Origin: Photorhabdus noenieputensis
GTDB taxonomy: Bacteria > Pseudomonadota > Gammaproteobacteria > Enterobacterales > Enterobacteriaceae
Assembly (NCBI RefSeq): GCF_018448935.1
Contig: NZ_RCWC01000042.1
Coordinates: forward strand, 1 to 50,211
Length of the DNA stretch: 50,211 bases
Direction of reading: 5' to 3'
Below the pieces are notes generated by a model. The model was given only the letters and a program-made list of their open reading frames with translations. It did not search any database and was not told the origin of the DNA. Below, one piece after another: positions 3,301 to 34,551 of the stretch (position 1 is its first letter; every line of letters begins with the position of its first letter). Position numbers and translations under genes: made by a program.

Positions 3301-6300
3301 TTGGAAGAATATACTGGACATATCCAGCCTAACTCATGAACAAACTTTTTTCGAACTAGGCGGTGATTCTATAACGGCAACAAAAATTATTTATCGTATA
3401 GAAGACTGTTTAAAAATCACCCTATCAATTCGTTCTATTTTTGAACACTCTACAATAAAAAGCCTATCAGAATTTATTGATAATAACATAATTAAAAATA
3501 CTCATGCTATAAGTATTAAGCCAACACCATCACATATTAAATTATTGTCATTAAAATCCCCACTCTCAGATGCCCAAAAAAGACTTTGGTTTCTATATAA
3601 GTTAAATAAGCAAAGCCCTGTTTATAATATCTCTGAGGCCTTTATGCTTAACGGAGAAGTTAACGTTATTGCTATCAAATATGCTTTAGAACAGCTGACT
3701 AAACGACATGAAACACTACAAGGAAGATTTATTGATACTGACGGAGTAACTATTCAGCAATATGATAAAGATCCCCATTTGAATTTCCAGGTTATAGACC
3801 TTTCTACTTCAGAGAACCTAAAGAGAGAGAGTATTTCAGATATAATTTCAAATGAAAGTAATAAATATTTCAAGTTGGAAGAAGAATCTCCATTTAGAGC
3901 TTTATTAATTAGTATCAAGAAAAAAAAACATATACTGGTTGTTTCTCTACACCATATCATTTCAGACGGATGGTCTATGGGAATTCTTTTAAAAGAATTT
4001 GCCATATTATATAAAAATTATGTAGTACAAGATTCTGGAATCCTACCGCCTTTGAAATATAAATTCAGCGATTATGTTGTTTGGCGAAATGAAAGATTAA
4101 ACTCATCATATATAAAAGAAGGAATTAATTATTGGAAAAAACGCCTCGAAGGATCACCTGCACTTCTCTCATTACCAACAGATTATCCTAGACCCTCCAT
4201 CTTCAGTCACCAGGGTAAAAGAGCAAGTTTATCCATATCCAAACAGCTAAGTGATAGATTAAATCTATTATGCAATGAACATAACGTGACGTTATTTATG
4301 CTATTATTAGCGGCTCTAAAAACCCTCCTGTTCCGGTATACTGGTCAAAAAGATATTGTTGTAGGAACACTTGTTGCCAATAGAAGTCACCCAGATTTTG
4401 AAGATATTGTTGGGTTCTTTGTTAACACGCTCGCTATTAGAACAGAGTTGGACGAGAAATTTACTTTCCATGAAACTCTAAACATTATTAAAAATAATAC
4501 ATTAAAAGATTTTTCAAACCAAGAAGTACCTTTTGAATCTATTATTGAAGCTATCAACCCGACACGTTCTTTAAGTTATACTCCTTTATTTCAGGTATTA
4601 TTTGTTCTACAAAACACACTACCAAGAAACATAGATTTAAGTCCCCTAAAAATAGAATTAATTGATCCTCAATTGAATGTTGCAAAATATGATCTAACGC
4701 TTTCATTAAATCCGACAATACAAGGGTTACGAGGATACATTGAATATAGTACCGATCTTTTTACTGAAGAAAGCATCATTAATATTATTGATAATTATAA
4801 AAACTTATTGGAAAAACTTACTCAAAATATTGATAAAAAACTAAGTTCAATAGATTTTATTTGTTCTAAACAAAAAAGTAATATATTAACTGAATATAGC
4901 GGCAGCAATAAAAAATATAATCTTAAAAAAGATATTATTCAAAGATTTGAAGAGCAGGCTACCCAATACCCTAACAATACTGCAATTATTGACAATAAGG
5001 CACACACTTCAATTGATTATCAAACATTAGCCAAAGAAGTCGAAATATTAGCTAGATATTTACAGTCATTAGGAATAAAAAAGCAAGACAAGGTTGCAAT
5101 TTGTCTTCAACGTTCTGAATCACAAATTAAAATTATATTAGCTGTATTAAAAATTGGTGCTATATGTGTTCCTATTGATAACGCCATGCCTAAAAATAGG
5201 ATTTTATCAATCTTACATGATGTCACTCCTGCTATTCTTATTAGCGAACAGATTGGCGAAATTGAGAGTTATGACTATTCTAATATACAATGCTGTCAAG
5301 TGGCCGAGCTTCTTCACAGTGCATTTAATCTTAATATAAGTAACGGTTATATAGAAAGAAATAATAATTTTAATACAACTGATTTAGCCTATATTATTTA
5401 TACTTCTGGATCGACCGGCGAACCTAAAGGTGTTGGCATAACTAGAGGATGTCTATCAAATTTAATTGATTATCATATTGCTGATTTGAAACAAGACACA
5501 CCGATATCAACACTCTATTATTCACCTCTAACATTTGATGTCTCTTTTCAAGAGTTATTTAGCACCTTATCTTGTGGTGGTACATTGCATATCATTCATG
5601 AAGATCAGAGAAGTGATTTTAGATGGCTATCATCGTATATTGATAACAAAAAAATAGAGCGAATTTTCTTACCTTATGTAGCACTAAATATTTTATCTGA
5701 AACAGCAACAAGTATTAATATATTTCCTAAACAGCTAAAGCATGTCATTACAGCAGGTGAAAAATTAGTCGTCACACCAGCAATAAGGACTTTCTTTTCT
5801 AAATTACCAGGTGCAAACCTTCATAACCACTACGGTCCAGCAGAAACGCATGTTGTAACAGAATTTATCCTAACCGGACAGCCAGAAACATGGCCTGATT
5901 CTCCGCCAATTGGTCAGCCAATAAGAAATGCTGAGATATATATCTTAGACTCAAATCTTCAGCCATTACCTATAGGAGGAATCGGTGAAATTTTTATTGG
6001 AGGTATACCTGTTTCGCCTGGCTATATAAATAAAGTAGATGAAACCGTTGCTAGATTCCTTTTTAATCCGTATTCCAATGATGATTTTAATTTATACCGC
6101 ACCGGTGATATGGGATATTGGAGATTTGACGGTAATATTCAATATATCGGTCGGCAGGATTATCAAATAAAGAACAGAGGATTTAGAATTGAATTAGGGG
6201 AAATAGAATCAGCATTAGATAAATCTAAGCATATAAAAAAAGCTGCGGTTATTAATAAGCCTTTAGGTCAGGAAAAAGTAAGAATTGTCGCTTTTTGTAT

Positions 6301-6814
6301 AGTGAATGAAACTAATTTATCCAGTGAAAATTATATAGAAATTATATTTAACGACTTAAAAGAATCCTTACCAGATTATATGCTTCCGGCAAAAATATTT
6401 ATAGTTAAAGAATTACCAATCACGGCCAATGGTAAGGTTAACAGAAAAAAACTACTAAGTGTCAAAGAAGAAAATGAAGTTAAAAAGGTTAATAACAAAA
6501 ACCTTAATGAGTATGAAAGGAAAGTATTCCTTATCTGGCAAGAAGTATTAGGTCATGATAAATTCAGTATAACCGATAATTTTTTTGATGTTGGCGGTAA
6601 CTCCCTAGCGATGGTTCGAGTACAAAATGCTTTATCTAAAGAATTTAATAAAGAAATTAACTTAATTGAAATGTTCAAATACACAACCGTATCTTCAATA
6701 AGTAAATATTTAAACACACCACACATAGAAACAAATAAAAACCAAAGCATTGCAAGTGAAAAATTAATATTACGTAAACAGTTTCTCCTGCGAAAGCAGA
6801 AGAATAAATCCTAA
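359..6814 (+). CDS. Two-module NRPS, C-A-T-C-A-T, predicted Gly then Pro
   Basis: This 2151-residue non-ribosomal peptide synthetase starts the assembly line. Domains in order are: C1 (HHIITDG near 136-142), A1 (YTSGSTGKPKG near 612), T1 (FFELGGDS, Ser1004), C2 (HHIISDG near 1198), A2 (YTSGSTGEPKG near 1682), T2 (FFDVGGNS, Ser near 2082). Aligned by eye to GrsA, the A1 pocket reads D-I-L-Q-L-G-V-I-W-K, one change from the published glycine code DILQLGLIWK. A2 reads D-V-Q-F-I-A-H-V-V-K, the published proline type. An N-terminal C domain with no upstream module suggests that Gly is N-acylated (lipo-initiation) or receives a unit from elsewhere. There is no epimerase and no TE, so the chain passes to the PKS that follows 15 bases later. 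All core motifs look intact. Domain calls are sure; substrates are inference. Confidence 0.93.
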   Translation: MPMLLSNTQERFFFEWKLTPNSPAFNTPLVFKIQGNINVSALNSALASVVKRHNTLRTVFIEVNDKVFQKILDDLVPEMELVDLTDIPSYKQNEVKIDTINKIISKPFDLTKAPLFKFCLIKLSSEKFYLVFNLHHIITDGYSANFILQDLSFHYNQFIIKNSVILPNINISINDYLDYEENLINKSEGFKEGIKFWLSELKGTELLINLHDKIAEETTYDFNGKRYYFDISDELTHRIKIISKKVGVTTFILLTGLFSILIRYYTGQDNITLGYTKSNRNKMFSNLFACLLNQLPMRIKLNGDLTFSQLLERIKKNRKNARQYENVPTNIILRSLRKQENASILRLYNVSILRTNFVTSGLNFTNACSESILIDTKTSKDDLTFIYDEGDSLQFAFEYKTALFSDEYIIEMAHNFTTLLENMLKNPDSKIRNMQILEDQRLKEKIQINIEPRIDRLPNLTIYDLFNKQVSLVPNHVAIETSHIKLTYAELNQEINSLTNFLKEKLIKSNINKKLIGLCFDRNYYMVVSILTVLRLGIGYLPLDPGYPEERLKYISQDADLELILTNTNVFNNNNSLKSINCDLICVDSIESQVKNAVINYPISPDNLAYVIYTSGSTGKPKGVKITQTNIISFVLSAIIEFNFQKEDSFLGITSWSFDIFLLEILLPLLTGGKYILYDQSDKNDFKKISEFIKQKKPTFVQATPTFWESILTFLTGYKNKIKILCGGEPLTTSVKNGLLNISQNVWNVYGPTETTIWSTVYKLSNDQAIKIGYPFNNTELYVLNKDLNLLPTGVIGELYIGGLGVGQGYLNQGILTKKHFLQNPFSNYSNKLSSIIYKTGDLVKSGKNGVLEYISRCDSQVKVRGHRIELGEIEKAIELEEKIAKAIVVVVETNNGKQLFAYYITKNKNIVDPTIIRQQVQLHLPYYMVPTHFIALQQFPTLPSGKIDRKKISILKPQSGVVEKYDEESFTETEKQVANIWKNILDISSLTHEQTFFELGGDSITATKIIYRIEDCLKITLSIRSIFEHSTIKSLSEFIDNNIIKNTHAISIKPTPSHIKLLSLKSPLSDAQKRLWFLYKLNKQSPVYNISEAFMLNGEVNVIAIKYALEQLTKRHETLQGRFIDTDGVTIQQYDKDPHLNFQVIDLSTSENLKRESISDIISNESNKYFKLEEESPFRALLISIKKKKHILVVSLHHIISDGWSMGILLKEFAILYKNYVVQDSGILPPLKYKFSDYVVWRNERLNSSYIKEGINYWKKRLEGSPALLSLPTDYPRPSIFSHQGKRASLSISKQLSDRLNLLCNEHNVTLFMLLLAALKTLLFRYTGQKDIVVGTLVANRSHPDFEDIVGFFVNTLAIRTELDEKFTFHETLNIIKNNTLKDFSNQEVPFESIIEAINPTRSLSYTPLFQVLFVLQNTLPRNIDLSPLKIELIDPQLNVAKYDLTLSLNPTIQGLRGYIEYSTDLFTEESIINIIDNYKNLLEKLTQNIDKKLSSIDFICSKQKSNILTEYSGSNKKYNLKKDIIQRFEEQATQYPNNTAIIDNKAHTSIDYQTLAKEVEILARYLQSLGIKKQDKVAICLQRSESQIKIILAVLKIGAICVPIDNAMPKNRILSILHDVTPAILISEQIGEIESYDYSNIQCCQVAELLHSAFNLNISNGYIERNNNFNTTDLAYIIYTSGSTGEPKGVGITRGCLSNLIDYHIADLKQDTPISTLYYSPLTFDVSFQELFSTLSCGGTLHIIHEDQRSDFRWLSSYIDNKKIERIFLPYVALNILSETATSINIFPKQLKHVITAGEKLVVTPAIRTFFSKLPGANLHNHYGPAETHVVTEFILTGQPETWPDSPPIGQPIRNAEIYILDSNLQPLPIGGIGEIFIGGIPVSPGYINKVDETVARFLFNPYSNDDFNLYRTGDMGYWRFDGNIQYIGRQDYQIKNRGFRIELGEIESALDKSKHIKKAAVINKPLGQEKVRIVAFCIVNETNLSSENYIEIIFNDLKESLPDYMLPAKIFIVKELPITANGKVNRKKLLSVKEENEVKKVNNKNLNEYERKVFLIWQEVLGHDKFSITDNFFDVGGNSLAMVRVQNALSKEFNKEINLIEMFKYTTVSSISKYLNTPHIETNKNQSIASEKLILRKQFLLRKQKNKS

Positions 6815-6829
6815 TTGGAGCATGGCAAC

Positions 6830-9800
6830 ATGAATATTGAAAATGAATTAACGTGTGATGATATGCTTAATGATGTAGCTATTATAGGAATGGCAGGACG
6901 ATTTCCGGAAGCTGACAATATCGATCAGTTCTGGTCTAATTTATGTGAAGGGAAAGAGTCTATAAAATTCTTTTCCGAAGACGAATTATTGGCACTCGGC
7001 GTTAAAAAACAAGTTATAAAGCAATCTAATTATGTACCTGCAAAAGGTAGTATTGAAAATTCTGAGTTTTTTGATGCAGAATTTTTTGGGTATACTCCTT
7101 ATGAAGCCGAATTACTCGATCCTCAACACCGGTTATTTTTAGAAACGGCCTTTCATGCATTAGAAGATGCCGGATATGACACTCTAAGATACAACGGTAA
7201 TATTGGCGTGTTTGCTGGTGCTGCAATGAACACTTACTTAATAGATCTGTATTCGAATCCAGGAGATATCGACCCGGTCGGCGGTCTACATCTAATGTTG
7301 TCAAACGATAAAGATTATTTACCTACTCGCGTATCATATAAACTCAATTTAACTGGACCAAGTGTTAATATTCAAACAGCTTGTTCGACCTCTTTAGTTG
7401 CTGTCCATATGGCATGTCAAAGTGTTCTAAGCGGAGAGTCTGATATAGCTCTCGCAGGTGGTGTTTCGATTTCTATCCCTTCACAAACCGGTTACCTCTA
7501 TCAAGAAGGCGGTTTTTTCTCTCCTGATGGACATTGCCGAGCTTTTGATGAAAAAGCCCAAGGGACAACTGACGGTAATGGGTTAGGCATTGTAGTATTA
7601 AAAAGATTGGCTTCTGCAATTGAAGATAAAGATCATATCTATTGCATTATCAAAGGATCATGTATCAATAATGATGGCAGTGGTAAAATTGGATACACTG
7701 CACCAAGTGAAGAAGGACAATTTACAGCAATTAATACTGCATTGAACATATCTGGTGTCAACCCAGAAGACGTCACTTATATCGAAACGCATGGAACAGG
7801 AACAATATTAGGCGATCCAATTGAGTTATCTGCCTTAAAAAGAGCTTACGCAAGCAAGAATAGAATTTCTCCTTGTCTGATCGGTTCCGTAAAAACAAAT
7901 ATCGGTCATCTTGGCATCGCCGCTGGAATAGCCGGTTTAATTAAAACTTCTCTTTCCCTAAATAAAGGAATAATACCATCATCGCTTAACTTTGATAAAC
8001 CAAATCCAAAATTAAGACTTGAAGAAAATATATTTTATGTCAATACAAAGCTAACATCATGGAATACCATCTGTGCTAGGGAAAAGTATGCCGGCATTAG
8101 TGCTTTTGGCATAGGTGGAACTAATGCACATATTGTTCTAAAGGAGTACCAAGACCATAATATAAACTCAACCAATAATAAAAAAAATCCACACCTAATT
8201 ATTTTGTCTGCTAAACGTGCTACCGATCTGGCTGTAATGTGTCAAGAATTATGCCATTTTCTAGAAAAAGAGAACTCTCCTAACTTAGCAAATATTGCTT
8301 ATACTTATCAAATTGGCCGGAGTCAATTTGACTCAAGAGTTTCATTAGTATGTCATAATAAAACCGAGGCCATTAAACGTTTGCAGGAACTTCTTCATTC
8401 AACATCTGCCACAAAGGAAATTAACAACGACAAAGTGGTTTTCATGTTTCCTGGTGGTGGCACACATTATCTAAGAATCGGACAAGAGCTGTTTGAAACT
8501 CTCCCCATATTTCAAAAAACATTTAAACAATGTTCAGATCTATTATTAACTCAACTAAAATTAGATTTATGTTCAGCACTATACTCAGGGGACCTCCCAT
8601 CTGAAGAAATAGAAACGTTACTAGAAAAAACATCTATTTCATTGCCATTAATTTTTTCAATCGAATACTCTTTGGCCTGTCAATTAATGCACTGGGGGAT
8701 TCAACCGCATTCTATGATAGGTCATAGCCTAGGAGAGTATGTAGCTGCATGTATTTCAGGTATTTTCTCACTTGAAGACGCAATTTATTTAGTTGCATGT
8801 CGTTCTCGCTTATTAGAAGAAATCTCAGGTGAAGGTGCTATGCTATGCATTATGTGTAGTGCCGAAAAAACATTAGAATACCTAGACGGAACCGAGCTAT
8901 CTTTAGCTGTTATCAATAGTCCTAATCAAACTGTCGTGTCTGGCCGTCCTGAAGAAGTACAAAAGCTTGTAGCTCGTTTAGATAAAAATAGAATCGCATA
9001 TTACAAAATTCCTATCCATACAGCTGGCCACTCTCATCTCGTTGAGCCTGTCCTTAAATCATTTGAAGAGGTTCTGCAAACAATAAAGTTTGGTTTACTA
9101 ACTATTCCATACGTTTCCAATGTAACCGGTACATGGATAACACAAGAAGAAGCACAGAGTAAAAAATATTGGTTAGAGCATTTAAAAAATACTGTAAATT
9201 TCAGTGCCGGGATAAGTAAGCTACTAAAAGATGACTATCAAATATTTCTAGAAGTAGGGCCGGGTAGGGCTTTAACAACGCTTATCAAGGACCATAATCC
9301 TATCAGCCCGATATTAGCAATAAATTGTATGAAACGAGCTAAAAGTAATGATTCTGACTCATCAATTTTATTAAATGCAGTTGGAAAATTATGGGAGACT
9401 GGCGTTACTGTAGACTGGTCTAAGTTTAATGAAGAAAACAAATTTAGTCGGGTTAGCTTGCCTAAGTACCCATTTCAGAGAAAATATTTTTCAAGAGCAA
9501 GAAAGCCAGAGCTTCCGGCTCTACTAAATGATCAACTATCTTCATCAATTGCAATTGAAAAAAGTAAAAATATTGATAGGTGGTTGAATATTCCAATTTG
9601 GAAAGAAGCTATTTTATTGTCGCAAGAAAAAAAACCTGAATGTGTACTCGTTTTCCTTCATAAGGAAGATAGCATCTCTTGCCAGCTTTTAAGCAAGATT
9701 CAGCGCATAGCTGAAAATACTATTATTGTTTATTCCGGAGCTGAACCATACGAAAAAGCAGAAAATACTTTTTATATCAATCCTGGCGATCACTCACACT

Positions 9801-11461
9801 ATGATAAACTCTTTTCAGAGCTTGATAAAGAAGGGAAGACTCCAGACGTCATAGTTAATTTATGGCTCATACCTAATTATACATTTAACGAAAAAGTTGA
9901 TACCGTACTTATTGATTATTCTTTTTATAGCATATTATATATAGCGAAATGTTTGTCACAATACGCGATTGGTAAAGATATAGCGCTGTATTACTTCACC
10001 TGCCAGTTAGCTACTTTTAACATATATGATATCCCGAATGCTCTTAAGTCACTCATTCTTGGACCGAGCAAATCAATCTCTCAAGAATATCCCAACATTA
10101 CCGTTCAATGCGTAGATATACCCACTGAATCAGAAGATCCTCAATATTATTTAGATGCTTTAATTAAAGAGGTTTTTTCTGAACCAGAAAACTCTAATTT
10201 TATTTACCGTCAAGGAAAACGTTGGAAACAAAATTATATAACTTTACCGACAACAGACGCTATAAAAAACACTTCTGCGTTGAAATATAAAGGAGTCTAT
10301 TTTATCACCGGTGGCTTAGGGCGTGTAGGTTTAATCCTGGCTGAATATCTAGCTACTCATTTTAATGCCAAATTAGTCTTGTTAACGCATTCAGATTTTC
10401 CTCCCGAAGAGGAATGGGATCGTATTGTTTCGCAAGTAGAAAGTAATCCAAAAATTATAAATTGCATAAATAAACTTTCCCAATTCAAAAAATTAGGCTC
10501 AGAAATAATGGTAATAAAAGCAGATGTTGCCAGTAAAGAGCAAATGAGTGAAGCGATCAACCAAACCTTAGCAAAATTTGGAAAAATTAATGGTGTTATC
10601 CATGGCGCAGCTACGGTGGGGGAAAGAGCGGTTAGGTCTGTAACTGAATTAAATAGGAATGATCTTGAATTACAGTTAAATACAAAAATATATGGAACGT
10701 TGGCGCTTGCCAATGCTTTGGATAACGTTGAATTAGACTTTTGTATTTTAATGTCATCACTATCCGCAATTTTAGGGGGATTAGGGTATTCAGCATATGC
10801 CTCGGCCAATGCCTTCATGGACGCTTATAGCCATAATAAGGGTAGGCCGTGGGTTAGCATAAACTGGGATCTTTGGGATACAAATGATGGGAAGGTTTTT
10901 GGTAAAAGTTTATCAAAACTACCTATGTCTCCTTCTGAGGGGGCGGAAGTTTTTCATAGAATTACAGGTTTAGCTACCTTTTCTCAAATTGCGGTTTCAA
11001 CCGGTAATTTGAATTCTCGTATCAACCAATGGGTAAATAGAGAAGGTCTGCAATTACATGATAAAATAGCTGGAAATGATGTTTCCTGTCTAACAACTTA
11101 TCCTCAATATACATCACAATATGTTATCCCGGCCAATTCACTAGAAACTGTTATCGTCAATATATGGCAAGAATTATTTGGTATAGCCGAGATTGGTGTA
11201 GAAACAGATTTTTTTGAAATAGGTGGGCATTCCTTATTAGCTGTACGTCTAGTTTCCCGAGTTCGAGATGTACTTAAGATTGACTTTCCACTACGTGAAT
11301 TATTTAAAGAGCCGACTGTTAGAGCAATGAGTGGAAAATTAGAAGCAATTGGTCATGAAAATGGTATTAATATTCATGAAATCTCAGATCTTTTAATTAG
11401 GATAAGTGGCCTATCCGAAGATGAAGTAAAAAAGGAAATATGGAAGGAATTAAATGATTAA
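6830..11461 (+). CDS. Type I modular PKS, KS-AT-KR-ACP
   Basis: This single polyketide extension module of 1543 residues probably adds one malonate to the prolyl chain and reduces the ketone. KS has Cys185 in TACSTS, with the two catalytic His in ETHGTG and KTNIGHLG. AT has Ser633 in GHSLGEY, with an unusual HTAGHS where malonyl ATs usually carry HAFHS. KR has TGGLGRVG near 1160, catalytic SSLSA and YSAYASANAF, and no LDD motif that I can see. ACP has Ser1468 in GGHSLL. No DH or ER is present, so the product unit should be a beta-hydroxy acid, statine-like if the previous residue is proline. I chose ATG 6830, preceded by GGAG, over the upstream TTG at 6815, which sits on the ribosome site. 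The gene overlaps the next one by 8 bases, implying translational coupling. Confidence 0.92.
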   Translation: MNIENELTCDDMLNDVAIIGMAGRFPEADNIDQFWSNLCEGKESIKFFSEDELLALGVKKQVIKQSNYVPAKGSIENSEFFDAEFFGYTPYEAELLDPQHRLFLETAFHALEDAGYDTLRYNGNIGVFAGAAMNTYLIDLYSNPGDIDPVGGLHLMLSNDKDYLPTRVSYKLNLTGPSVNIQTACSTSLVAVHMACQSVLSGESDIALAGGVSISIPSQTGYLYQEGGFFSPDGHCRAFDEKAQGTTDGNGLGIVVLKRLASAIEDKDHIYCIIKGSCINNDGSGKIGYTAPSEEGQFTAINTALNISGVNPEDVTYIETHGTGTILGDPIELSALKRAYASKNRISPCLIGSVKTNIGHLGIAAGIAGLIKTSLSLNKGIIPSSLNFDKPNPKLRLEENIFYVNTKLTSWNTICAREKYAGISAFGIGGTNAHIVLKEYQDHNINSTNNKKNPHLIILSAKRATDLAVMCQELCHFLEKENSPNLANIAYTYQIGRSQFDSRVSLVCHNKTEAIKRLQELLHSTSATKEINNDKVVFMFPGGGTHYLRIGQELFETLPIFQKTFKQCSDLLLTQLKLDLCSALYSGDLPSEEIETLLEKTSISLPLIFSIEYSLACQLMHWGIQPHSMIGHSLGEYVAACISGIFSLEDAIYLVACRSRLLEEISGEGAMLCIMCSAEKTLEYLDGTELSLAVINSPNQTVVSGRPEEVQKLVARLDKNRIAYYKIPIHTAGHSHLVEPVLKSFEEVLQTIKFGLLTIPYVSNVTGTWITQEEAQSKKYWLEHLKNTVNFSAGISKLLKDDYQIFLEVGPGRALTTLIKDHNPISPILAINCMKRAKSNDSDSSILLNAVGKLWETGVTVDWSKFNEENKFSRVSLPKYPFQRKYFSRARKPELPALLNDQLSSSIAIEKSKNIDRWLNIPIWKEAILLSQEKKPECVLVFLHKEDSISCQLLSKIQRIAENTIIVYSGAEPYEKAENTFYINPGDHSHYDKLFSELDKEGKTPDVIVNLWLIPNYTFNEKVDTVLIDYSFYSILYIAKCLSQYAIGKDIALYYFTCQLATFNIYDIPNALKSLILGPSKSISQEYPNITVQCVDIPTESEDPQYYLDALIKEVFSEPENSNFIYRQGKRWKQNYITLPTTDAIKNTSALKYKGVYFITGGLGRVGLILAEYLATHFNAKLVLLTHSDFPPEEEWDRIVSQVESNPKIINCINKLSQFKKLGSEIMVIKADVASKEQMSEAINQTLAKFGKINGVIHGAATVGERAVRSVTELNRNDLELQLNTKIYGTLALANALDNVELDFCILMSSLSAILGGLGYSAYASANAFMDAYSHNKGRPWVSINWDLWDTNDGKVFGKSLSKLPMSPSEGAEVFHRITGLATFSQIAVSTGNLNSRINQWVNREGLQLHDKIAGNDVSCLTTYPQYTSQYVIPANSLETVIVNIWQELFGIAEIGVETDFFEIGGHSLLAVRLVSRVRDVLKIDFPLRELFKEPTVRAMSGKLEAIGHENGINIHEISDLLIRISGLSEDEVKKEIWKELND

Positions 11462-12776
11462 CTCTATATCACAACAACAATCATCTTGTTTATTGGAAAG
11501 CGAAGATCCTTTATTAAGTTCATTGATAAACAAAGAATCTAAGCGCCAAAAAAATGCTCTATCAATGGTAGCATCGGCAAGTGTTGCCCTACCAAGCGTT
11601 ATTGCTTGTGAAAATACGACATTAATCAATGTTACAACAGAAGGTTATCCGAATTCACGTTATCATGGAGGTTGTAGGTTTGTTGACCAAATTGAAGAAT
11701 TAGCTGTTGAAAGAGCAAAAAGCGCATTTAGCGCCAAATATGCAAATGTCCAACCTCATTCAGGTTCCTCCAGTAATGAAATTGTAATCTTTGGCTTGCT
11801 AAATCCAGGAGATCGCATTTTGGGGATGGATATTTGTAGCGGTGGTCACTTAACTCACGGTGCTCCGGTTTCTGCTATTGCTAAATATTTTGAAGTCTAC
11901 TCTTATGGAGTTGATCCAAAAGGATATATTGACTATGAACAAATAGAAGATATAGCTTTACATTGCAAACCAAAACTTATTATTTGTGGTGCAAGCTCAT
12001 ATCCGAGGAAAATAGATTTTGCCAAATTCAGAAAGATAGCAGATAAGATCAACGCCTTTTTATTAGCTGATATTTCTCATATAGCCGGCCTTGTTGCTTC
12101 CGGGCTACACATGAGTCCAATAGACCATGCCCATATCACAACAACTAGTACATATAAGCAATTATACGGCCCTAGGGGAGGATTGATTTTATGTGGTAAA
12201 GATTATGATATCTGCGTAGAAAAAAACGTCACATTATCCCAAAAACTGCAAAAAGCAGTATTTCCGTTTTATCAAGGGACGCCGATCTTAAATGCTATTG
12301 CAGGAAAGGCAAGGGCTTTGGATTTTGTTAATAGTAAAGAATTCGCTTTGTTAATGAAAAACGTTATCTTGCATTCTAATACATTAGCCAATAATTTAAT
12401 CGAATTAGGGTACAACGTTATTACTCAAGGCACGGATAATCATATGGTTTTAGTTAATCTGCTTGACAGAGGAATTACAGGATATTGCGCAGAAAAATCA
12501 TTGGAAAAATGTAACATCATTGTTAATAGAAACCGTATTGCCGGAGATAATAAATCATCAATGATAGCAAGTGGGTTACGTTTTGGTACAAATTCCTTAG
12601 CTTTTAGAGGACTTGGTCAACCAGAATTAAAACAATGCACTGAAATTATTAATGAGATTCTAACCCACACAACCGTAATATCCGATACACAATTCCGATT
12701 GGATGAAAGTATAAAGAACAAAGCTGTTAACCAAGTAAAAGCTCTGTGCGATCAATTTCCACTATATCACGTATAG
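11454..12776 (+). CDS. Serine hydroxymethyltransferase-like PLP enzyme (candidate threonine transaldolase/aldolase)
   Basis: This fold-type I PLP enzyme of 440 residues follows GlyA along its whole length (EGYP, NVQPHSGS, GGHLTHG, YKQLYGPRGG with the Schiff-base Lys235). Compared by eye with E. coli GlyA, several active-site positions differ. The Tyr55 equivalent is Thr (TTEGYP), the Tyr65 equivalent is His (RYHGG), the His before the PLP lysine is Tyr, and D-x-AH has become DISH. The Glu57 equivalent is kept. A housekeeping GlyA would not normally sit in an NRPS operon, so I infer a specialised aldol or transaldol reaction making or trimming a beta-hydroxy-alpha-amino acid, as shown for ObiH in obafluorin. 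It starts inside the PKS stop, after AAGGAA. The exact substrate is unknown. Confidence 0.85.
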   Translation: MINSISQQQSSCLLESEDPLLSSLINKESKRQKNALSMVASASVALPSVIACENTTLINVTTEGYPNSRYHGGCRFVDQIEELAVERAKSAFSAKYANVQPHSGSSSNEIVIFGLLNPGDRILGMDICSGGHLTHGAPVSAIAKYFEVYSYGVDPKGYIDYEQIEDIALHCKPKLIICGASSYPRKIDFAKFRKIADKINAFLLADISHIAGLVASGLHMSPIDHAHITTTSTYKQLYGPRGGLILCGKDYDICVEKNVTLSQKLQKAVFPFYQGTPILNAIAGKARALDFVNSKEFALLMKNVILHSNTLANNLIELGYNVITQGTDNHMVLVNLLDRGITGYCAEKSLEKCNIIVNRNRIAGDNKSSMIASGLRFGTNSLAFRGLGQPELKQCTEIINEILTHTTVISDTQFRLDESIKNKAVNQVKALCDQFPLYHV

Positions 12777-12839: not shown

Positions 12840-15800
12840 ATGGCAGTAAAACTATCTAAAGGGTTCCCCATTCTTTCTGAACAGCAAAAAGAACTGTTTG
12901 ATCTACTACTTAAAAAAAAGGGCATTCAACTGGCAGAAAAGGAAAAAATACAACCAACGACCCAAAGTGAAATCCCTTTGTCTCTTGCTCAAGAGAGGAT
13001 TTGGTTTTTACATCAATTAGAGCCTAACAGTGCATTTTACAACACTCCTTTTGTCATTAAATTAAAAGGGCAACTGGATTATTCTGCACTGGAAATGGCG
13101 GTACAAACGGTTATTGATAGGCATGAAATATTACGAACCATTTTCCCTACCGAAAATAACATGCCACTCCAAAAGATAATGCCATCTCTTAGTATAAAGC
13201 TGCCTATCATTGATCTCAGTAATTATGATGATATTGGTGACAGAGAAGCAAAAGCGCACGAAATTACAGATGAATCAGTACAGGATATCTTTAATTTAGA
13301 AAAAGGGCCATTAGTTAAAACCAAGCTAATTAAATTAAGTAATGTTGAACATTGGTTTATATTCTTAACACACCATATGGTATTTGATGGGTGGTCTGTA
13401 CCTGTTTTAGGGCGAGAACTAACTATTGCATATAATGCTTACCTTGAAGGCGTTAAGCCAAATTTGGATGTATTATCAATACAATACAAGGATTTCTCTG
13501 TTTGGCAAAGGGAGCGATTAACGACAAAAGAACACTCAGAAAAACTATTAAACTACTGGAAAAAAGAATTAAATAATTTTATCCCTAATTTAACCATTGA
13601 TGGGGACTATTCAAGACCTTCTATTCAGAGGTATAATGGAGCCTCTATATTTTTCGATATATCCCAAGAAAAAGTTAAAATATTGGACAAAATTTGTCAG
13701 GAAAATCATGTAACCTTATTTGTCGGTCTATTAACAGTTTTTAAATTACTAGTTTATATTTATACGGAAGAAACAGATATTACGATTAGTACAGGGATAG
13801 CTAATCGTAATAGAGCGGAAATAGAACCACTAATAGGATGTTTTATTAATATATTGCTATTACGTAGCGATCTTTCGAACAATCCTACATTTATTGAGCT
13901 AATCCGAAGAATAGGTAATAAGACAAGTGAAGCTTTCTCACACCAAGATCTTCCTTTTGAACTATTAGTTTCAGAGTTACAACCGAAACGTGATTCTAGT
14001 TTTAGCCCTTTAGTACAAATGATGATCGTATTCCACAATGCAGACTTAGAAGTTGATACAATGAATAATCTTTTTTCAGAAATGATTTCACCTGAAAAAA
14101 ACATTGCACAATATGATTTGTTATTACATTTAATTAAATCAGATAACGGCGTTAAAGCTGTATTAGAATACAATACTGATCTTTATAAAAAAGAAACGGC
14201 AAGAAGTATTACCCAACGTTTTAATATTTTATTAGAAAAAATAATCACAAATCCGGCAATAAATATCAATAGATTGAATTTACTTAATCAAGGTGACGAG
14301 TATTTCCTAGCAAAAGTCAATAATACAACAATACCGATAGAAAATATTCAACTGCATGAACTTTTTGAAAGGCAGGTAGCCAATAACCCACAAGCAGTTG
14401 CCGTTTATGACGGGGAACAGGTTATAACTTATTCTGAGCTGTCTCATAAAGTTAATCTGACTGTACAAGCTCTTTATCAGTTTGGTGTAAAGCCTGGAGC
14501 GATAGTAGCAATCTGTGTAGATCCTTCCACAGAATTAATTCAATATATGCTTGCTATTTTAAAAATAGGCGCTGCTTATCTTCCTCTAGACTCTAGTTAT
14601 CCTGAAGAAAGATTACAATACATGCTAGATAATGCAGAGGTAGCAACGATAGTTACTCAGAAAAAGTATGTTAAAAATATCAATACCGAAGAAAATAATA
14701 GACAATTACTTATTGTAGAAGAAGTAAACAATAATAGTCTACCGACCGACTCTAAACTCTCTTATCATGCGGATCCTGAAAGTTTGGCCTATGTAATTTA
14801 TACATCAGGTTCGACAGGAAGACCTAAAGGAATTGCAATCAAACATCGAGGAATTGTAAATAACCTGCTCGACTTAAACTTAAATTTTTCTCTCAAACCA
14901 AGCGATCGGCTAATATTAATTTCATCAACAAGCTTCGATATGTCTGTCTATGAAATTTTTGGTACTCTAGCTGCCGGTGCGGCTGTAGTTATACCAGAAA
15001 GAAGTAAACATAAAGATCCGCGTCACTGGGTTGAACTAATTGAAAAATTTAACATAAGTGTCTGGAATTCAGCTCCAGCAATATTGTCTCTGTTAATAGA
15101 ATCAATAAAAATCGTAGATAAATATAAAATTCAATCAATTAGATTGATAATTTTAGGTGGTGATTGGGCCCCTATACCATTGTTAAAGAATATTAAAGAA
15201 GAGGTGATACCTAACTCAGAGATCGTAGTCCTCGGTGGTGCTACAGAAGCCTCTATCCACTCCATAATCTACCCAGTGAAGTCTATTCAAGACCACTGGA
15301 AGAGTATCCCTTATGGACATCCAATGAAAAATCAAACGGCCTATATATTGTCAAAAACATTGCAGCCGCTACCAATGGGTATGCAAGGTGAACTATATAT
15401 AGGCGGAATAGGGTTAGCCAAAGAATACATAAACAACTCCTCTTTAACAGCAGAGAAATTTATACCTAATCCTTTTTCTAACATTACTGGAGAGCGACTT
15501 TATAGAACTGGAGATTTAGCTCGTTGGATGCCAGATGGGAATATTGAATTAATTGGCCGTATAGATACCAGCCAAGTAAAAATTCATGGCCTAAGAATTG
15601 AGTTGGAAGAAATTGCCAACGTTATAAAAAAAATACCTGGTGTTTTAGATTCGCTAGTAATTACTCTCAATAATGAGAATACTTCGAAGAGTTTAGCTGC
15701 ATTTATTATTATGGCTCCAAAAGTGGAAACTACAGTTACACAAATTAAAAGCCATATTAGTGATTACCTTCCTACATTCATGGTACCTTCTCATATAGTT

Positions 15801-16913
15801 TTTATCGAAAAAATCCCTCTTTCGCCTAACGGTAAGGTTGACAGACGGCAATTACAAGAGTATTGCTATTCAAAAATTGAGTTACGTCAAGATATTACTC
15901 TTCCTATAACTCAAACAGAAAAAATGCTCACCGCAATTTGGAAAGAAATCTTAGATGTTGAAACAATATCTATAGATGATGATTTTTTTGAGATCGGAGG
16001 CAACTCTTTAAAATTAATCAGAGTAATACAAAAACTACCTATTAATATTAATGTGATCGATTTAATGCGAAATCCAACTATTTCTCAGCTAGCTACTAAG
16101 ATTGATAATTATAACTCTTACCAAAAAGATGAAAAGCTCATATATCAGTTCTCAACCAATGCTAATCATGTTGAAGAAAAGAAAACGATTGTATGTGTAC
16201 CTTATGGTGGAGGGAGTGCAGTTATTTATCAATATTTAGCAAAGTTAATCGAACATAAGTTTAATGTATACGCAGTAGCAATTCCAGATACTCAAAATAA
16301 CAACAAGTCTATAGAAAGCATAGCCGAACAGTGCACAAATGAGTTAAAAACTGTTTTTGGGGAAACAATATCTCTTTATCTTTACGGGCATTGTGCCGGC
16401 GTTGCTTTGGCTCTTGAAATTGCTAAGAAATTGGAAAAAAATGGTTTTAAGGTTGAAAGAACATTTGTTGGTGCCGCATTGCCATGGGCAAGAAACAAAT
16501 TATTAAAAGCAATAGGTAATATTCAACTAGTTAATCCTTTTAGGAACCAACAAGCTATATTGAATTACATACAAAAGTTAGGGGGAATTGAAGAGATAGA
16601 AGATCCAACAAAATTATCTTTTGTGACAGAAGCATTTGTTCGTGATGCTAATTTGGCTGAAGACTATATATATAATCACCTTAAATCAAAGGAAAAATTA
16701 AAATCTCCAATTACGTGTATTATTGGAGGAAATGACCCATTGACACCAAATTATATGAAAAAATATAAAGAATGGAGCGCTTTTAGTGACCAAGTTGATT
16801 TAGTTGTAATAGAAAATGCTGGTCATTATTTCCTAAAAGATAAAGTTACAGAGTTAAGCCGTATTCTAATCGAGAGTACTAGTAATATATCATCTGCTAC
16901 TAATGGAGAATAA
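12840..16913 (+). CDS. Terminal NRPS module C-A-T-TE with a cysteine thioesterase
   Basis: This is the final module of the line, 1357 residues. C carries HHMVFDGWS. A carries YTSGSTGRPKG and the GGATEAS form of core A5. T carries FFEIGGNS. A C-terminal thioesterase follows. The A pocket reads D-M-Y-N-I-G-L-I-H-K by eye, closest to the cysteine code DLYNLSLIWK but different at four positions, so the substrate is uncertain; a beta-hydroxy amino acid made by the neighbouring SHMT homologue is possible. The TE nucleophile motif is GHCAG (Cys1185) instead of GHSxG, with plausible Asp (GGNDPLTP) and His (NAGHYF) partners. Cys-TEs are known to make beta-lactone (obafluorin) and beta-lactam (sulfazecin) products. 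ATG 12840 has GGAG about 7 bases upstream and is preferred over the TTG at 12828. Confidence 0.92.
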   Translation: MAVKLSKGFPILSEQQKELFDLLLKKKGIQLAEKEKIQPTTQSEIPLSLAQERIWFLHQLEPNSAFYNTPFVIKLKGQLDYSALEMAVQTVIDRHEILRTIFPTENNMPLQKIMPSLSIKLPIIDLSNYDDIGDREAKAHEITDESVQDIFNLEKGPLVKTKLIKLSNVEHWFIFLTHHMVFDGWSVPVLGRELTIAYNAYLEGVKPNLDVLSIQYKDFSVWQRERLTTKEHSEKLLNYWKKELNNFIPNLTIDGDYSRPSIQRYNGASIFFDISQEKVKILDKICQENHVTLFVGLLTVFKLLVYIYTEETDITISTGIANRNRAEIEPLIGCFINILLLRSDLSNNPTFIELIRRIGNKTSEAFSHQDLPFELLVSELQPKRDSSFSPLVQMMIVFHNADLEVDTMNNLFSEMISPEKNIAQYDLLLHLIKSDNGVKAVLEYNTDLYKKETARSITQRFNILLEKIITNPAININRLNLLNQGDEYFLAKVNNTTIPIENIQLHELFERQVANNPQAVAVYDGEQVITYSELSHKVNLTVQALYQFGVKPGAIVAICVDPSTELIQYMLAILKIGAAYLPLDSSYPEERLQYMLDNAEVATIVTQKKYVKNINTEENNRQLLIVEEVNNNSLPTDSKLSYHADPESLAYVIYTSGSTGRPKGIAIKHRGIVNNLLDLNLNFSLKPSDRLILISSTSFDMSVYEIFGTLAAGAAVVIPERSKHKDPRHWVELIEKFNISVWNSAPAILSLLIESIKIVDKYKIQSIRLIILGGDWAPIPLLKNIKEEVIPNSEIVVLGGATEASIHSIIYPVKSIQDHWKSIPYGHPMKNQTAYILSKTLQPLPMGMQGELYIGGIGLAKEYINNSSLTAEKFIPNPFSNITGERLYRTGDLARWMPDGNIELIGRIDTSQVKIHGLRIELEEIANVIKKIPGVLDSLVITLNNENTSKSLAAFIIMAPKVETTVTQIKSHISDYLPTFMVPSHIVFIEKIPLSPNGKVDRRQLQEYCYSKIELRQDITLPITQTEKMLTAIWKEILDVETISIDDDFFEIGGNSLKLIRVIQKLPININVIDLMRNPTISQLATKIDNYNSYQKDEKLIYQFSTNANHVEEKKTIVCVPYGGGSAVIYQYLAKLIEHKFNVYAVAIPDTQNNNKSIESIAEQCTNELKTVFGETISLYLYGHCAGVALALEIAKKLEKNGFKVERTFVGAALPWARNKLLKAIGNIQLVNPFRNQQAILNYIQKLGGIEEIEDPTKLSFVTEAFVRDANLAEDYIYNHLKSKEKLKSPITCIIGGNDPLTPNYMKKYKEWSAFSDQVDLVVIENAGHYFLKDKVTELSRILIESTSNISSATNGE

Positions 16914-16914
16914 C

Positions 16915-18063
16915 ATGGAACAAGTAGAAGTATGGATGTTATACAAGGGGCTTGAAAGGAAAAATCTTGAAAGAGAAATGATCTATATTAAAGATATTGA
17001 GCCGGAGGAAGTGTTAGCTGAACCTCTTTATGGATGCTGGGAAGGTAATATGGAACACGCTTTAGAACGCCAACCAATTGACATCTGTAAAGAAAGAAAG
17101 GAGGACAAAGTTGTTATTGGTAATTCAGGTGTTGTTCGCATTCTCAAGGTTGGTAATACTATAAAACATTTACGAGAAGGTATGATCTGTATTTTATTTT
17201 GTGGTGAAAATACAAGAAATGATAAATTTCCGCAAAAAATTTATGCCTATGATCAACCTAATACAATAGGATTATTATCGAAAAAAGTTAAGTTACATCA
17301 TAAATATCTTATTCCAATACCTGAAAACTCAAAATATACGCTACCACAGTGGGCTGCTTTTTCTTTACGTTATATTACAGCCTGGTCAAATTGGCAAGTA
17401 TCTTATAACTGTTGGCTAGCTAACATTAAAAACAATAAAGCTGCATATTCTGATGCCTATGTATGTGCTTGGGGAGGCGGAGTTTCATTTGCCTTTGTCA
17501 CTCTAGCAAAAATTCATGGTTTTAATGCAGGACTTATCTCATCGAAAAAAACGATGTTAAAATATATTACAGATGTCGGTCTTGACTCAATCGATAGGAA
17601 CTTATTCCGCGATCTGGCTTATAATGAGGAACTTTATAACACGGATAAAAATTTCAAAAAAAATTATCGGCAAGCTGAAAAAACCTTCTTAAATATTATT
17701 AACGAAAAAACTTCTGAAAAAGGCGTTGCTATTTTCATGGATCTAGTAGGTTTTCCAGTGTTCAGGGCAACATTAAAGGCATTAGCTTCTCCAGGCGTAA
17801 TAACAACGTCCGGTTGGAAAAAAGGAATGCATCTGACCTCTTCCCGGGCTGTGGAGTGTATTAAGCGCCACACTCATGTTCACACACATTATGCTTCTTA
17901 TGAAGAAGGCCTAGACGCTGTTACCTTTGCAGAAACAAATGGTTGGCTCCCCCCTATAACCGATAAAATATGGCAGTGGGATGACATCCCTCATCTTTCT
18001 AAGCTCGGTTTATATGAAAGTTTAGACACTTATTTTCCAATATACCAAATTAATCCTATCTAA
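16915..18063 (+). CDS. MDR-superfamily (zinc-type alcohol dehydrogenase/quinone reductase-like) oxidoreductase
   Basis: This 382-residue protein has the medium-chain dehydrogenase layout. An N-terminal GroES-like half (EPLYGCWEGNMEHAL, VVIGNSGVVRILKVG) is followed by a nucleotide-binding half with a glycine-rich turn (WGGGVSFAFVTLAK) after the usual TAW segment. The opening EPLYGCWE recalls crotonyl-CoA carboxylase/reductase-type members, but length and context argue against a true CCR. It starts 1 base after the NRPS stop, with GGAG at 16905-16908 serving ATG 16915. A role as a stand-alone reductase on the carrier-bound chain, or as a dehydrogenase on a released alcohol or aldehyde, is plausible. 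It could also supply the aldehyde used by an SHMT-like aldolase. No substrate can be read from the sequence. Confidence 0.75.
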   Translation: MEQVEVWMLYKGLERKNLEREMIYIKDIEPEEVLAEPLYGCWEGNMEHALERQPIDICKERKEDKVVIGNSGVVRILKVGNTIKHLREGMICILFCGENTRNDKFPQKIYAYDQPNTIGLLSKKVKLHHKYLIPIPENSKYTLPQWAAFSLRYITAWSNWQVSYNCWLANIKNNKAAYSDAYVCAWGGGVSFAFVTLAKIHGFNAGLISSKKTMLKYITDVGLDSIDRNLFRDLAYNEELYNTDKNFKKNYRQAEKTFLNIINEKTSEKGVAIFMDLVGFPVFRATLKALASPGVITTSGWKKGMHLTSSRAVECIKRHTHVHTHYASYEEGLDAVTFAETNGWLPPITDKIWQWDDIPHLSKLGLYESLDTYFPIYQINPI

Positions 18064-18084: not shown

Positions 18085-20418
18085 ATGAAAAAATTGTTTA
18101 AATATTTTTTTTTCCTGTTCTGTTTCTCAACTTTCGGTTTTATTGCCTTAGTCGGCTATCTGTACAACTCGACCAGTCCAAAACATGACGGGCAGATTAA
18201 ATTCAAAGGGTTATATGGAAAAGTTACTATTGCGCGCGATGAACTAGGTATTCCTCGCATAAAAGCCGAATCAAACGATTTAGATGCCTACTTCGCTTTA
18301 GGATTTACTCATGCACAAGATAGATTTTGGCAAATGGAGGTCCAGCGGCGTATCGTTCAGGGTAGGCTCAGTGAAATCTTCGGGGAGGAAGCGCTTGATA
18401 ATGACAAGATTCTTAGAACCTGGCAATTTCAACGAGCGGCCAAGTCGTCACTCGATGTTTTGAATGATAATACTCAAAAAATTATAGAAAGTTATACTGC
18501 TGGCGTTAATGAATTTTTAAAGTTAAAAAAGTACCCTATCGAAATTTTACTATTAGGATATGAGCCAGAACCCTGGACGAATATTGATACTATATCCTGG
18601 CAAAAAATGTTAGCTTGGAATTTAGATCGTGCCTGGGAGGAAAAATTAAAGAACTATCTTGTGATAACACAACTTGGCCAAGAAAAATTTAATCTTGCAA
18701 GCATAAGCTACCCCAAAGATGCGCCTATCACACTTTCTGATAGTGATTGGACTTCTTCTATAAGGGAAAGCAATAAGTTAAATCATAGTGTTAGTACTAA
18801 TATATCTACAATAAAGAATATTAAGAAGAAAGATCTGTTTGATGGAAAAATTAGTTCTTATATTAGATCCGTGGAGTCTTATGGTCTTGGTTCTAATGCT
18901 TGGGTTATCTCTGGGCAACATACAGAAACAGGGAAACCAATATTAGCAAACGATCCTCATTTATCTTTTTCTGCACCTAATTTATGGTACTTAGCTACCA
19001 TGCAAGGACCTAATTTAAACGTAACCGGAGCAACAATTCCCGGTTTCCCATCGATAGTAATTGGACACAATAAAAATATTACTTGGGGAGTTACTGCCGC
19101 AGTCATTGACAATCAAGATTTATTCATTAATCCTTCAAACCAAGTGATAATTGAAGAAAGAATCAAGGTAAAAAACAAACAGGACGTACTCTATTCTGTA
19201 AAATTAAGTGATGAAGGCCCTGTTATTAGTAGCATAGAACCTATAAATAGGATTGGAAAAGATATTGCAATAAAGTGGCCAGCGCTTATGCCTAGTGATA
19301 AATCTGTGCAAGCACTAATAGCATTAGGGTATGCAAATAACTGGGAAGAATTTAAATTATCTTTAAGCGAATATGTTGCACCCGCACAAAATTTTCTCTA
19401 TGCAGATATAAAAGGTAACATTGGGTATTATCTGGCTGCAAGGATACCAATTAGGAACAATATCGACCCGAGATTTCCAGTAAATAGCGGTAGTTGGACA
19501 GAATATATTCCCTTCAATGAAATGCCCCATGTTTTAAATCCAGAAAAGGGTTATATTATATCAGCAAATAACAAAATTATTTCTGAACAATATCCGTTTT
19601 CACTCACCAGCAGCTGGAATGTTCCCCCCTACCGCGCAAAACGTATTACCGATACAATCATCAATAGTCAAAAAATCAATATTGAAGATACAAAGAAGCT
19701 TCAAAATGATGTAAAAAGTTATTTATGGTTAGATTTTATGCCTATCTTATTGGAAAAAACTAAACCAAATGACGATCTTAGTGAAGTCGCCCTTGAAAAA
19801 TTACAAAAATGGGATGGTGAAATGGTTAGGGATAGAATTGAACCTACAATCTGGTCATATTGGTACGAAGAATTATCCAAAATGAATAATATAATTGATA
19901 CGCCCTTTAAGTGGTCCGAATCATTATTCCTTAAAAAACAGCTAAGCTCTGAAGGCTCTTTTTGTCTTACAGAATTTACACAAAATTGTTCAGATTATTT
20001 ATCTAAATCACTTCATGCGGCGATGACTAGGCTTAAATCAGATAATGGAGATAATTTATCGAAATGGCAATGGGGAAGGGTACACCAAGCCCAATTTAAA
20101 GGATTAGTCATTGGTGAATCGCCATGGCTAGGTTGGTTATGGAACAGGAATATTGCCACTAGTGGCGGGAAGTATACAGTAAATGTTGGAATATATGATG
20201 ATGACTTCAAAAACACCGTTGGTCCAGGTTATAAACAAATTATAGACCTAGCAGATATAGATAATAATAGCCTGTTTATTTTATCACTAGGTCAGTCAGG
20301 AAATACTTTACATAAAAATTATGATGATATGTTACAATTATGGCAAACGGGCGATTATATTAAATTATACAATAATAATTTTATAAAAAAACTTTCTTTT
20401 GAACCATCATCTAAATAG
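18085..20418 (+). CDS. Penicillin acylase-family Ntn hydrolase with N-terminal membrane anchor
   Basis: This 777-residue precursor of the penicillin G acylase/PvdQ family is autocatalytically cut into alpha and beta chains in that family. The new beta-chain N-terminal nucleophile would be Ser270 in GLGSNAWV. Other family marks are the alpha-chain stretch GFTHAQDRFWQMEVQRR, the beta-chain NDPHL, and PGFPSIVIGHN followed by ITWG. An uncleaved signal anchor or signal peptide (about residues 5-27, very hydrophobic) places it in the periplasm or on the inner membrane. As fourth gene after the assembly line it most simply removes an N-acyl cap from the exported product (prodrug activation, as for PvdQ in pyoverdine maturation). 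Quenching of a foreign amide antibiotic or AHL is an alternative. Family call is firm; role is inference. Confidence 0.9.
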   Translation: MKKLFKYFFFLFCFSTFGFIALVGYLYNSTSPKHDGQIKFKGLYGKVTIARDELGIPRIKAESNDLDAYFALGFTHAQDRFWQMEVQRRIVQGRLSEIFGEEALDNDKILRTWQFQRAAKSSLDVLNDNTQKIIESYTAGVNEFLKLKKYPIEILLLGYEPEPWTNIDTISWQKMLAWNLDRAWEEKLKNYLVITQLGQEKFNLASISYPKDAPITLSDSDWTSSIRESNKLNHSVSTNISTIKNIKKKDLFDGKISSYIRSVESYGLGSNAWVISGQHTETGKPILANDPHLSFSAPNLWYLATMQGPNLNVTGATIPGFPSIVIGHNKNITWGVTAAVIDNQDLFINPSNQVIIEERIKVKNKQDVLYSVKLSDEGPVISSIEPINRIGKDIAIKWPALMPSDKSVQALIALGYANNWEEFKLSLSEYVAPAQNFLYADIKGNIGYYLAARIPIRNNIDPRFPVNSGSWTEYIPFNEMPHVLNPEKGYIISANNKIISEQYPFSLTSSWNVPPYRAKRITDTIINSQKINIEDTKKLQNDVKSYLWLDFMPILLEKTKPNDDLSEVALEKLQKWDGEMVRDRIEPTIWSYWYEELSKMNNIIDTPFKWSESLFLKKQLSSEGSFCLTEFTQNCSDYLSKSLHAAMTRLKSDNGDNLSKWQWGRVHQAQFKGLVIGESPWLGWLWNRNIATSGGKYTVNVGIYDDDFKNTVGPGYKQIIDLADIDNNSLFILSLGQSGNTLHKNYDDMLQLWQTGDYIKLYNNNFIKKLSFEPSSK

Positions 20419-20452: not shown

Positions 20453-20983
20453 ATGAAATCAGGCTTGCTTATTATAGATATGCAAAAAGGCTTGTTTATG
20501 TTAGATAAGCCAATTTATGATGAAGTACGATTGATCAAAAATATAAGCTCTCTTATTAGTCAGGCTAGAAAAGCTGGAATACCAATTATATATATGCAAC
20601 ATTGTGGTGGTGAATGTCATCCGTTGGAAACAAATAATATTGGCTATCAATTTGTTGATCAGATAAACGTAACGCCCAATGACATAATAATTCAAAAAAA
20701 ACACCCGGATTCCTTCCAGTCAACAGAATTACATAGCGTTCTTAGTGAGTTAGCTATTAATAACATTATACTTGTTGGAATGCAGACTGAATATTGCATT
20801 GATTCTACTTGCCGCCGAGCATACTCATTAGGCTATAATGTTACGCTAGTTGGGGATGCCCATAGTACTTGTGATGGCGATGTATTAGATGCTAAACAAA
20901 TTGTTGCTCATCATAATGAAATTCTTGGTGCGCTATTTGCGTCGGTCATCTTAACTGACAAAGTCATATTTAATAATAATTAG
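20453..20983 (+). CDS. Isochorismatase-like cysteine hydrolase
   Basis: This compact alpha/beta enzyme of 176 residues belongs to the isochorismatase/nicotinamidase superfamily. The triad is visible as Asp9 (LLIIDMQ), a Lys in IIQKKHPDSF (about 82-84) and Cys115 (QTEYCIDST). Family members hydrolyse amides or enol ethers such as nicotinamide, N-carbamoylsarcosine, oxamate or isochorismate; nothing here identifies the substrate. It lies 34 bases after the acylase with its own AAGGA site and is the last gene of the cluster. It could be a tailoring amidase or a self-protection enzyme that opens the product. Isochorismate-based chemistry is unlikely, because no dihydroxybenzoate genes are nearby. 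Confidence 0.85.
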   Translation: MKSGLLIIDMQKGLFMLDKPIYDEVRLIKNISSLISQARKAGIPIIYMQHCGGECHPLETNNIGYQFVDQINVTPNDIIIQKKHPDSFQSTELHSVLSELAINNIILVGMQTEYCIDSTCRRAYSLGYNVTLVGDAHSTCDGDVLDAKQIVAHHNEILGALFASVILTDKVIFNNN

Positions 20984-34513: not shown

Positions 34514-34537
34514 TCCTTAGGACTTATACATTGACAG
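34499..34537. promoter_or_regulatory. Long perfect palindrome IR2 overlapping the -10 region
   Basis: The left arm CTGTCAATGTATAAGTCC (34499-34516), the loop TTA and a perfectly complementary right arm (34520-34537) form an 18-bp inverted repeat. It has the same GTCCTTAGGAC core as IR1. It covers the promoter -10 and the probable transcription start and ends at the AGG of the ribosome site, so it could act as operator on DNA and as a hairpin at the mRNA 5' end. Confidence 0.6.
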
Positions 34538-34551
34538 GTATCATATTAAAT

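Follow-up and report, generated by a model that had tools for sequence, protein, structure and literature searches.

The thioesterases (TEs) of the obafluorin synthetase ObiF1 (PDB 6n8e) and the sulfazecin synthetase SulM (PDB 8w2c) are two solved, ring-forming enzymes with a cysteine nucleophile. In the published accounts, the ObiF1 variant C1146S yields only the beta-hydroxy acid, G1173L is damaging and R1190A lowers product about 10-fold (PMC6668435), and SulM-type beta-lactam TEs carry a Gln-Cys-Asn motif (PMC11298585). In benzobactin biosynthesis, the serine hydroxymethyltransferase (SHMT) PbzB is dead as a T68Y H78Y double mutant, and the adenylation (A) domain PbzD-A2 takes 2-hydroxymethylserine and groups with Cys-type A domains (PMC10098953). 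The ioc/leu beta-lactone of all Xenorhabdus and Photorhabdus is described as following a different route (PMC9177418). Here we describe a gene cluster of the insect-pathogenic bacterium Photorhabdus noenieputensis, on a stretch of 50,211 nucleotides (the window) that is a whole contig (NZ_RCWC01000042.1; C42 of 233) of the 5.36 Mb genome, in which an SHMT probably of the PbzB type precedes a nonribosomal peptide synthetase (NRPS) ending in a cysteine TE, and which may direct the synthesis of a peptide beta-lactone with a quaternary alpha carbon. An earlier note on this sequence had proposed beta-lactone or beta-lactam-like release by analogy with obafluorin and sulfazecin.

The cysteine thioesterase and its relatives

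The TE domain (16140..16910, plus strand) closes NRPS 2, a condensation-A-thiolation-TE (C-A-T-TE by Pfam) protein on the same strand that starts at TTG 12828 or, better, at ATG 12840, with GGAG just 5′, and ends at 16913. Numbered from that ATG, the nucleophile is Cys1185 in GHCAG (codon TGT, nt 16392), exactly where the earlier note had placed it, and the Asp and His that it had thought plausible are Asp1299 (GGNDPLTP, nt 16734) and His1329 (AGHYF, nt 16824). A phmmer search of the TE against PDB chains returned ObiF1 (1.3e-26) and SulM (7.8e-15), and because all three triad residues align with both, GHCAG is, on this alignment, no chance motif. Asp1299 aligns with ObiF1 Asp1254 and SulM Asp2926, that is, at position II; position I has no Asp, with Ala1212 standing where ObiF1 has Gly1173, and an Arg aligns at the ObiF1 Arg1190 site. 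The triad is kept in the copy of this TE in Photorhabdus heterorhabditis SF41. Among solved thioesterases, the predicted fold is closest to ObiF1 and next closest to SulM.

A search of 84,980 species genomes with four TEs found 258 relatives, and the analysis covers the 80 best (L045–L124). All 80 have the Cys, the position-II Asp and the His, and none has an Asp at position I. Of the two patterns searched with, one includes the nucleophile and the other does not; YGHCxG in its written form is missing from 47 of the 80, which therefore came through the second pattern, and still every one of the 80 carries Cys. A three-TE profile matched 23 of 398 phylum genomes at E 1e-10, the strongest two after the window's own being an ObiF-like NRPS (G686) and an NRPS of the host family (G177), both GHC, and the rest much weaker. 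The latter belongs to a ketosynthase (KS)-rich cluster (L042/L043) whose terminal Cys-TE has GHCVG and DPLT and whose A code, DVWHFSLIDK, is Ser-like; the 40 kb read there hold no match to an SHMT. In 73 of the 80 the protein continues for at least 425 residues past the TE; the tail of L054 is MFS_1 by Pfam, four more tails look alike by eye and three ObiF-like ones differ, so that proteins of the L054 type would be synthetase–exporter fusions. A further NRPS with a Cys-TE (GHCVG, DDPLT) lies on plasmid pNK81 of Caballeronia sp. NK8 (L208), where the Thr-like terminal A code DFWNVGMVHK marks a candidate threonine beta-lactone line.

The first TE tree held the 22 of the 80 left after clustering at 62% identity; a larger tree also has three more of the 80 and the TEs of Azospirillum and Caballeronia. 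Seven of 16 Ser-TE candidate loci gave a usable row, BorB (6vap) served as another, and 20 of the 80 TEs entered a structure alignment. The window TE falls within the Cys-TE clade (100/100 against 8 Ser-type TEs), and so does not show the clustering with ordinary hydrolytic TEs that the earlier note had named as contrary to its proposal; yet it lies outside the ObiF clade (100/100, 4 rows), beside L048 and L092. Its place within the Cys-TE clade, not settled in the first tree, was resolved in the larger one, where its nearest kin are two Bacillota TEs with Ser-like codes (90/83; 93/91 without SulM and G177). The layout of the triad, the sequence, the predicted fold and the tree together support a TE of the ObiF1/SulM kind, for which four-membered ring formation is predicted, and it is this kinship that makes strained-ring release the leading hypothesis.

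The hydroxymethyltransferase and the terminal adenylation domain

The SHMT gene (11454..12776, plus strand; Pfam PF00464, E 1.3e-125) lies directly before NRPS 2, as had been noted earlier. By motif, the lysine that binds pyridoxal phosphate is Lys235, and in TTEGYPNSRYH (TTEG--RYH) Thr61 and His71 replace Tyr55 and Tyr65 of GlyA; the meaning of TxEG--RYH as against YAEG--RYY follows PMC10098953 and PMC6411801. The protein forms one clade with PbzB (100/100; 9 rows versus 16 YAEG--RYY enzymes), in which the exceptions are L204, with RYY instead of RYH, and the L200 stretch (G959), without the motif region. It scores 446 bits as an SHMT (cut-off 335) and 80.2 bits as a fluorothreonine transaldolase (TIGR04506, cut-off 650), and its identity to the presumed transaldolase adjoining an ObiF-like NRPS at two Pseudomonas loci (L044, L117) is about 23%. 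A threonine transaldolase is rejected on that score, and of the obafluorin-like pairing proposed in the earlier note the TE half is retained and the transaldolase half given up. We conclude with high confidence from these comparisons that the enzyme is a PbzB-type hydroxymethyltransferase. Because it is of this type, the expected building block is 2-methyl- or 2-hydroxymethylserine, made with methylenetetrahydrofolate (methylene-THF), rather than an aldehyde-derived beta-hydroxy amino acid, and activity on aldehydes, by which the earlier note would have judged the enzyme, is inapplicable to it.

The host genome has a separate GlyA-type SHMT, 44% identical and with YAEG--RYY. A two-row SHMT profile matched 325 of 349 genomes at E 1e-115 and does not separate the PbzB type; all 13 genome SHMT loci read in the tree have YAEG--RYY and none the PbzB-type motif. 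For the SHMT alignment, 15 of 46 viral loci were chosen along with the window and L045, and L140 (stop codon), L157 and L169 were omitted. The PbzB-like gene of G959 has no NRPS A domain in the surrounding 40 kb that were read and was used solely as a tree row. One further SHMT match (G482:C1:2798837-2799994) lies within an open frame of 11,085 residues and may represent an SHMT built into a megasynthase.

The terminal A domain of NRPS 2 (A3) has the code DMYNIGLIHK. Its pocket segment finds its best PDB matches in BmdB, PchE and 6lta, the first two of which we take to be Cys-type and the last to be FmoA3, specific for 2-methylserine; for the whole protein and a longer A segment the top match is linear gramicidin synthetase (two A domains). 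Similarity searches of plasmids found an SHMT in 167 and 207 records, and from the 20 and 10 best, five PbzB-clade SHMTs were examined. In three of these clusters the gene next to the SHMT opens with an A domain of nearly the same code (DMYNLGMIHK in Pseudonocardia EC080625-04 and Streptomyces NBC_01136, DMYNMGLIHK in Streptomyces BHT-5-2), 41–42% identical to A3, and their SHMTs are sisters of the window SHMT (92/90). This linkage of code and SHMT clade argues that A3 probably loads the product of the PbzB-type SHMT. The plasmid of L204 may, we presume, be that of gerumycin; 2-methylserine in gerumycin could not be confirmed. A 28 kb Staphylococcus epidermidis plasmid (NZ_CP070059.1, L206) carries a benzobactin-like cluster with the A code DMFAVACNWK, a PbzB-type SHMT, a phenylacetate-CoA ligase family protein, anthranilate synthase parts and a free condensation protein.

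Proposed pathway, its alternatives and the setting of the cluster

Together with five further plus-strand genes, the SHMT and NRPS 2 form an operon-like row. NRPS 1 (359..6814; C-A-T-C-A-T by Pfam) has the A codes DILQLGVIWK (A1) and DVQFIAHVVK (A2), the latter reading DVQFIAHV-K or DVQFTGHVVK in other alignments; by Stachelhaus codes A1 would be Gly-like and A2 Pro-like, which would give a Gly-Pro start. A polyketide synthase module follows (6815..11461; KS-acyltransferase-ketoreductase-acyl carrier protein by Pfam, ketoreductase catalytic residues by eye), the acyltransferase of which has HTAGHS where HAFH or YASH serves as comparison. Behind NRPS 2 lies a divergent dehydrogenase (16903..18063) weakly like crotonyl-CoA carboxylase/reductase (CCR), which matches nothing in Pfam at E 0.001 and no PDB sequence at E 0.01; a CCR role is unproven, the score of 45.8 bits lying far under the cut-off of 378.55. 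Given HTAGHS and this CCR-like neighbour, we presume that an alkylmalonyl- or ethylmalonyl-type extender might be meant, which could not be confirmed. The row ends with a penicillin-amidase-family (N-terminal nucleophile) acylase (18085..20418; PF01804, E 3.4e-193), which has an N-terminal hydrophobic segment by eye and scores only 42.1 bits against the PvdQ model (cut-off 950), and an isochorismatase-family hydrolase (20453..20983; PF00857, E 1.3e-34).

In the pathway that we propose, the hybrid line would build an N-acylated peptide of acyl-Gly-Pro, one reduced polyketide extension and a last residue. The PbzB-type SHMT would take a hydroxymethyl group from methylene-THF and add it to Ala or to Ser/Gly, and the resulting 2-methyl- or 2-hydroxymethylserine would be loaded by the terminal A domain, whose Cys-type pocket is also used for such residues. 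Cys1185 would receive the chain as a thioester, and the CH2OH of the last residue, activated by His1329 and Asp1299, would attack the carbonyl and release a peptide beta-lactone with a quaternary alpha carbon. The acylase may later strip the N-acyl cap. Gene order, TE class and triad, SHMT subtype and clade, and the tie between A code and PbzB-clade SHMTs are read from the sequences; the exact amino acid, the ring closure, the cap and its removal are what we infer here.

Taken as a whole, from SHMT product through A3 loading to ring closure, the beta-lactone pathway seems to us an evenly balanced prospect, and the doubt beyond SHMT subtype and A3 loading is in the release step. The Cys-TE might merely hydrolyse the chain to a linear peptide ending in free 2-methyl- or 2-hydroxymethylserine, which we think rather unlikely, though several observations favour it and weigh against ring closure. 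Terminal A codes from 77 of the 80 surveyed loci, under amino acid names that we assume for them, are Asp-like in 29, Ser-like in 14, Gly-like in 6, ObiF-like in 3, of the window type in 1 (L045) and others in 24, and with Gly-like or Asp-like codes a beta-lactone would be impossible or unexpected. Because Cys-TE lines end in such a range of codes, the step from Cys-TE to beta-lactone is weakened; the combination of Cys and position-II Asp is widespread in these lines, so that the assumption that this triad means a beta-lactone or beta-lactam becomes testable. The type II TE BorB also comes near SulM in sequence score (2e-14 versus 7.8e-15), and the type II hydrolases RifR and RedJ have the same triad layout (PMC11298585).

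A larger ring, or a dimer or oligomer, closed through either a CH2OH on the last residue or the polyketide hydroxyl would recall the tentative benzobactin dimer and the proposed larger 2-hydroxymethylserine ester forms (PMC10098953), and 2-hydroxymethylserine would provide two hydroxyl groups; this course is improbable, as the benzobactin forms needed free-standing PbzA and PbzI (PMC10098953), with no counterpart among the window genes seen, and a constrained pocket is described for ObiF1/SulM (PMC11298585). It is slightly more doubtful still that the last residue is plain Thr, Ser or Cys, with the SHMT serving another step or one-carbon supply, in which case a Thr- or Ser-beta-lactone could still form. 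DMYNIGLIHK does resemble the codes for Thr (DFWNIGMVHK) and Cys (DLYNLSLIWK), and the Cys-TE line of Caballeronia has DFWNVGMVHK; against this, the same code type adjoins PbzB-clade SHMTs in the three plasmid clusters, and the genome carries its separate GlyA-type SHMT. A beta-lactam formed as in sulfazecin, the other product that the earlier note had envisaged, is hardly to be expected even though, of the solved TEs, only ObiF1 is closer than SulM: GHCAG stands in place of Gln-Cys-Asn, neither a sulfotransferase nor a 2,3-diaminopropionate gene is seen among the cluster genes, and the SHMT product would offer a hydroxyl, not a beta-amine.

Beta-lactones are covalent warheads, and if the beta-lactone is indeed made, its fully substituted alpha carbon would represent a new warhead geometry and the two solved ring-forming Cys-TEs would be extended to a third substrate class. 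In the portions available of the literature on 2-hydroxymethylserine and benzobactin, SHMT and obafluorin, and alpha-methylserine and beta-lactone natural products, we found no TE-formed beta-lactone from 2-methyl- or 2-hydroxymethylserine.

The cluster has a G+C content of 33.8%, versus 47.1% in the flanking 21.4–50 kb, where type IV pilus genes, a shufflon-type pilus protein and, by eye, a DnaB-like helicase and a topoisomerase-like protein are found, and it appears to sit on a mobile island resembling an integrative and conjugative element. An AbiEi/AbiEii toxin–antitoxin pair also lies on the island (34531-36345; PADLOC 5.1e-100 and 1.2e-109). P. heterorhabditis SF41 has the same cluster, at 99.2% DNA identity across the 20,771 bases compared, followed by the same pilus genes. 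At E 1e-250 or better the NRPS occurs in just one of 12 genomes of the host genus, the genome of the window itself, and this genome is likewise the sole one of 149 from the family to have the SHMT at E 1e-110 or better; the cluster DNA gave no match to plasmids.

Comparison with described systems

ObiF1 shares with NRPS 2 the C-A-T-TE order, GHCAG, the position-II Asp and a small position-I residue, and is its best match in TE sequence and fold. The two TEs are 30% identical, and the systems differ in A code, in TE clade and in partner, a transaldolase for ObiF1 and an SHMT here; an MbtH-like domain follows the ObiF1 TE, whereas the window TE is C-terminal, with none behind it in the Pfam search. 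SulM, the second-best match in sequence and fold, shares the Cys nucleophile and position-II Asp and differs in having Gln-Cys-Asn where the window TE has His-Cys-Ala; no sulfotransferase occurs among the annotated cluster genes, on a contig that begins 358 bases before NRPS 1.

On the side of the building block, PbzB (PDB 7qcw) is the best PDB match of the window SHMT (1.6e-117, 44% identity), with which it shares the Thr/His motif, a partner NRPS with a Cys-type A domain and an insert of 9–10 residues after GPRGGLIL that the other aligned SHMTs lack. The benzobactin system differs in its benzoxazolinate genes, none of which is found in the window cluster, and release of benzobactin B is reported to be independent of the PbzA TE (PMC10098953), unlike the release proposed here. 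PbzB is not the closest by fold to the window SHMT model. FmoA3, the A code of which differs from that of A3, makes a methyloxazoline and not a TE-formed ring. In common with the window, the FmoA3/FmoH system (JBIR-34/35) has a PbzB-type SHMT that gives 2-methylserine (PMC10098953) for an A domain that is Cys-like by the 6lta match.

A parallel in gene content is on plasmid pAB510a of Azospirillum sp. B510 (L203), which has a two-module NRPS, a KS region, a PbzB-type SHMT and a C-A-T-TE gene whose TE reads GHCGG and DDPLT. Eight plasmid records matched the TE at E 1e-15, and among the matches listed only that of Azospirillum also lies within 4 kb of an SHMT. An SHMT–NRPS fusion is rejected there, as the two open reading frames overlap in different frames and are simply adjacent. 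The A code (DICHVDAIDK) differs, and neither TE nor SHMT is placed as a sister of the window's, in trees where the Azospirillum placement is itself weakly supported; the pairing may therefore have arisen twice. We tentatively suggest that quaternary-alpha-carbon peptide beta-lactones are made by a PbzB-type SHMT acting with an ObiF-like Cys-TE, and that this coupling has arisen more than once, on the Photorhabdus island and on the Azospirillum plasmid. A PbzB-type SHMT gene adjoining a C-A-T-Cys-TE gene provides a two-gene rule by which further examples may be sought.

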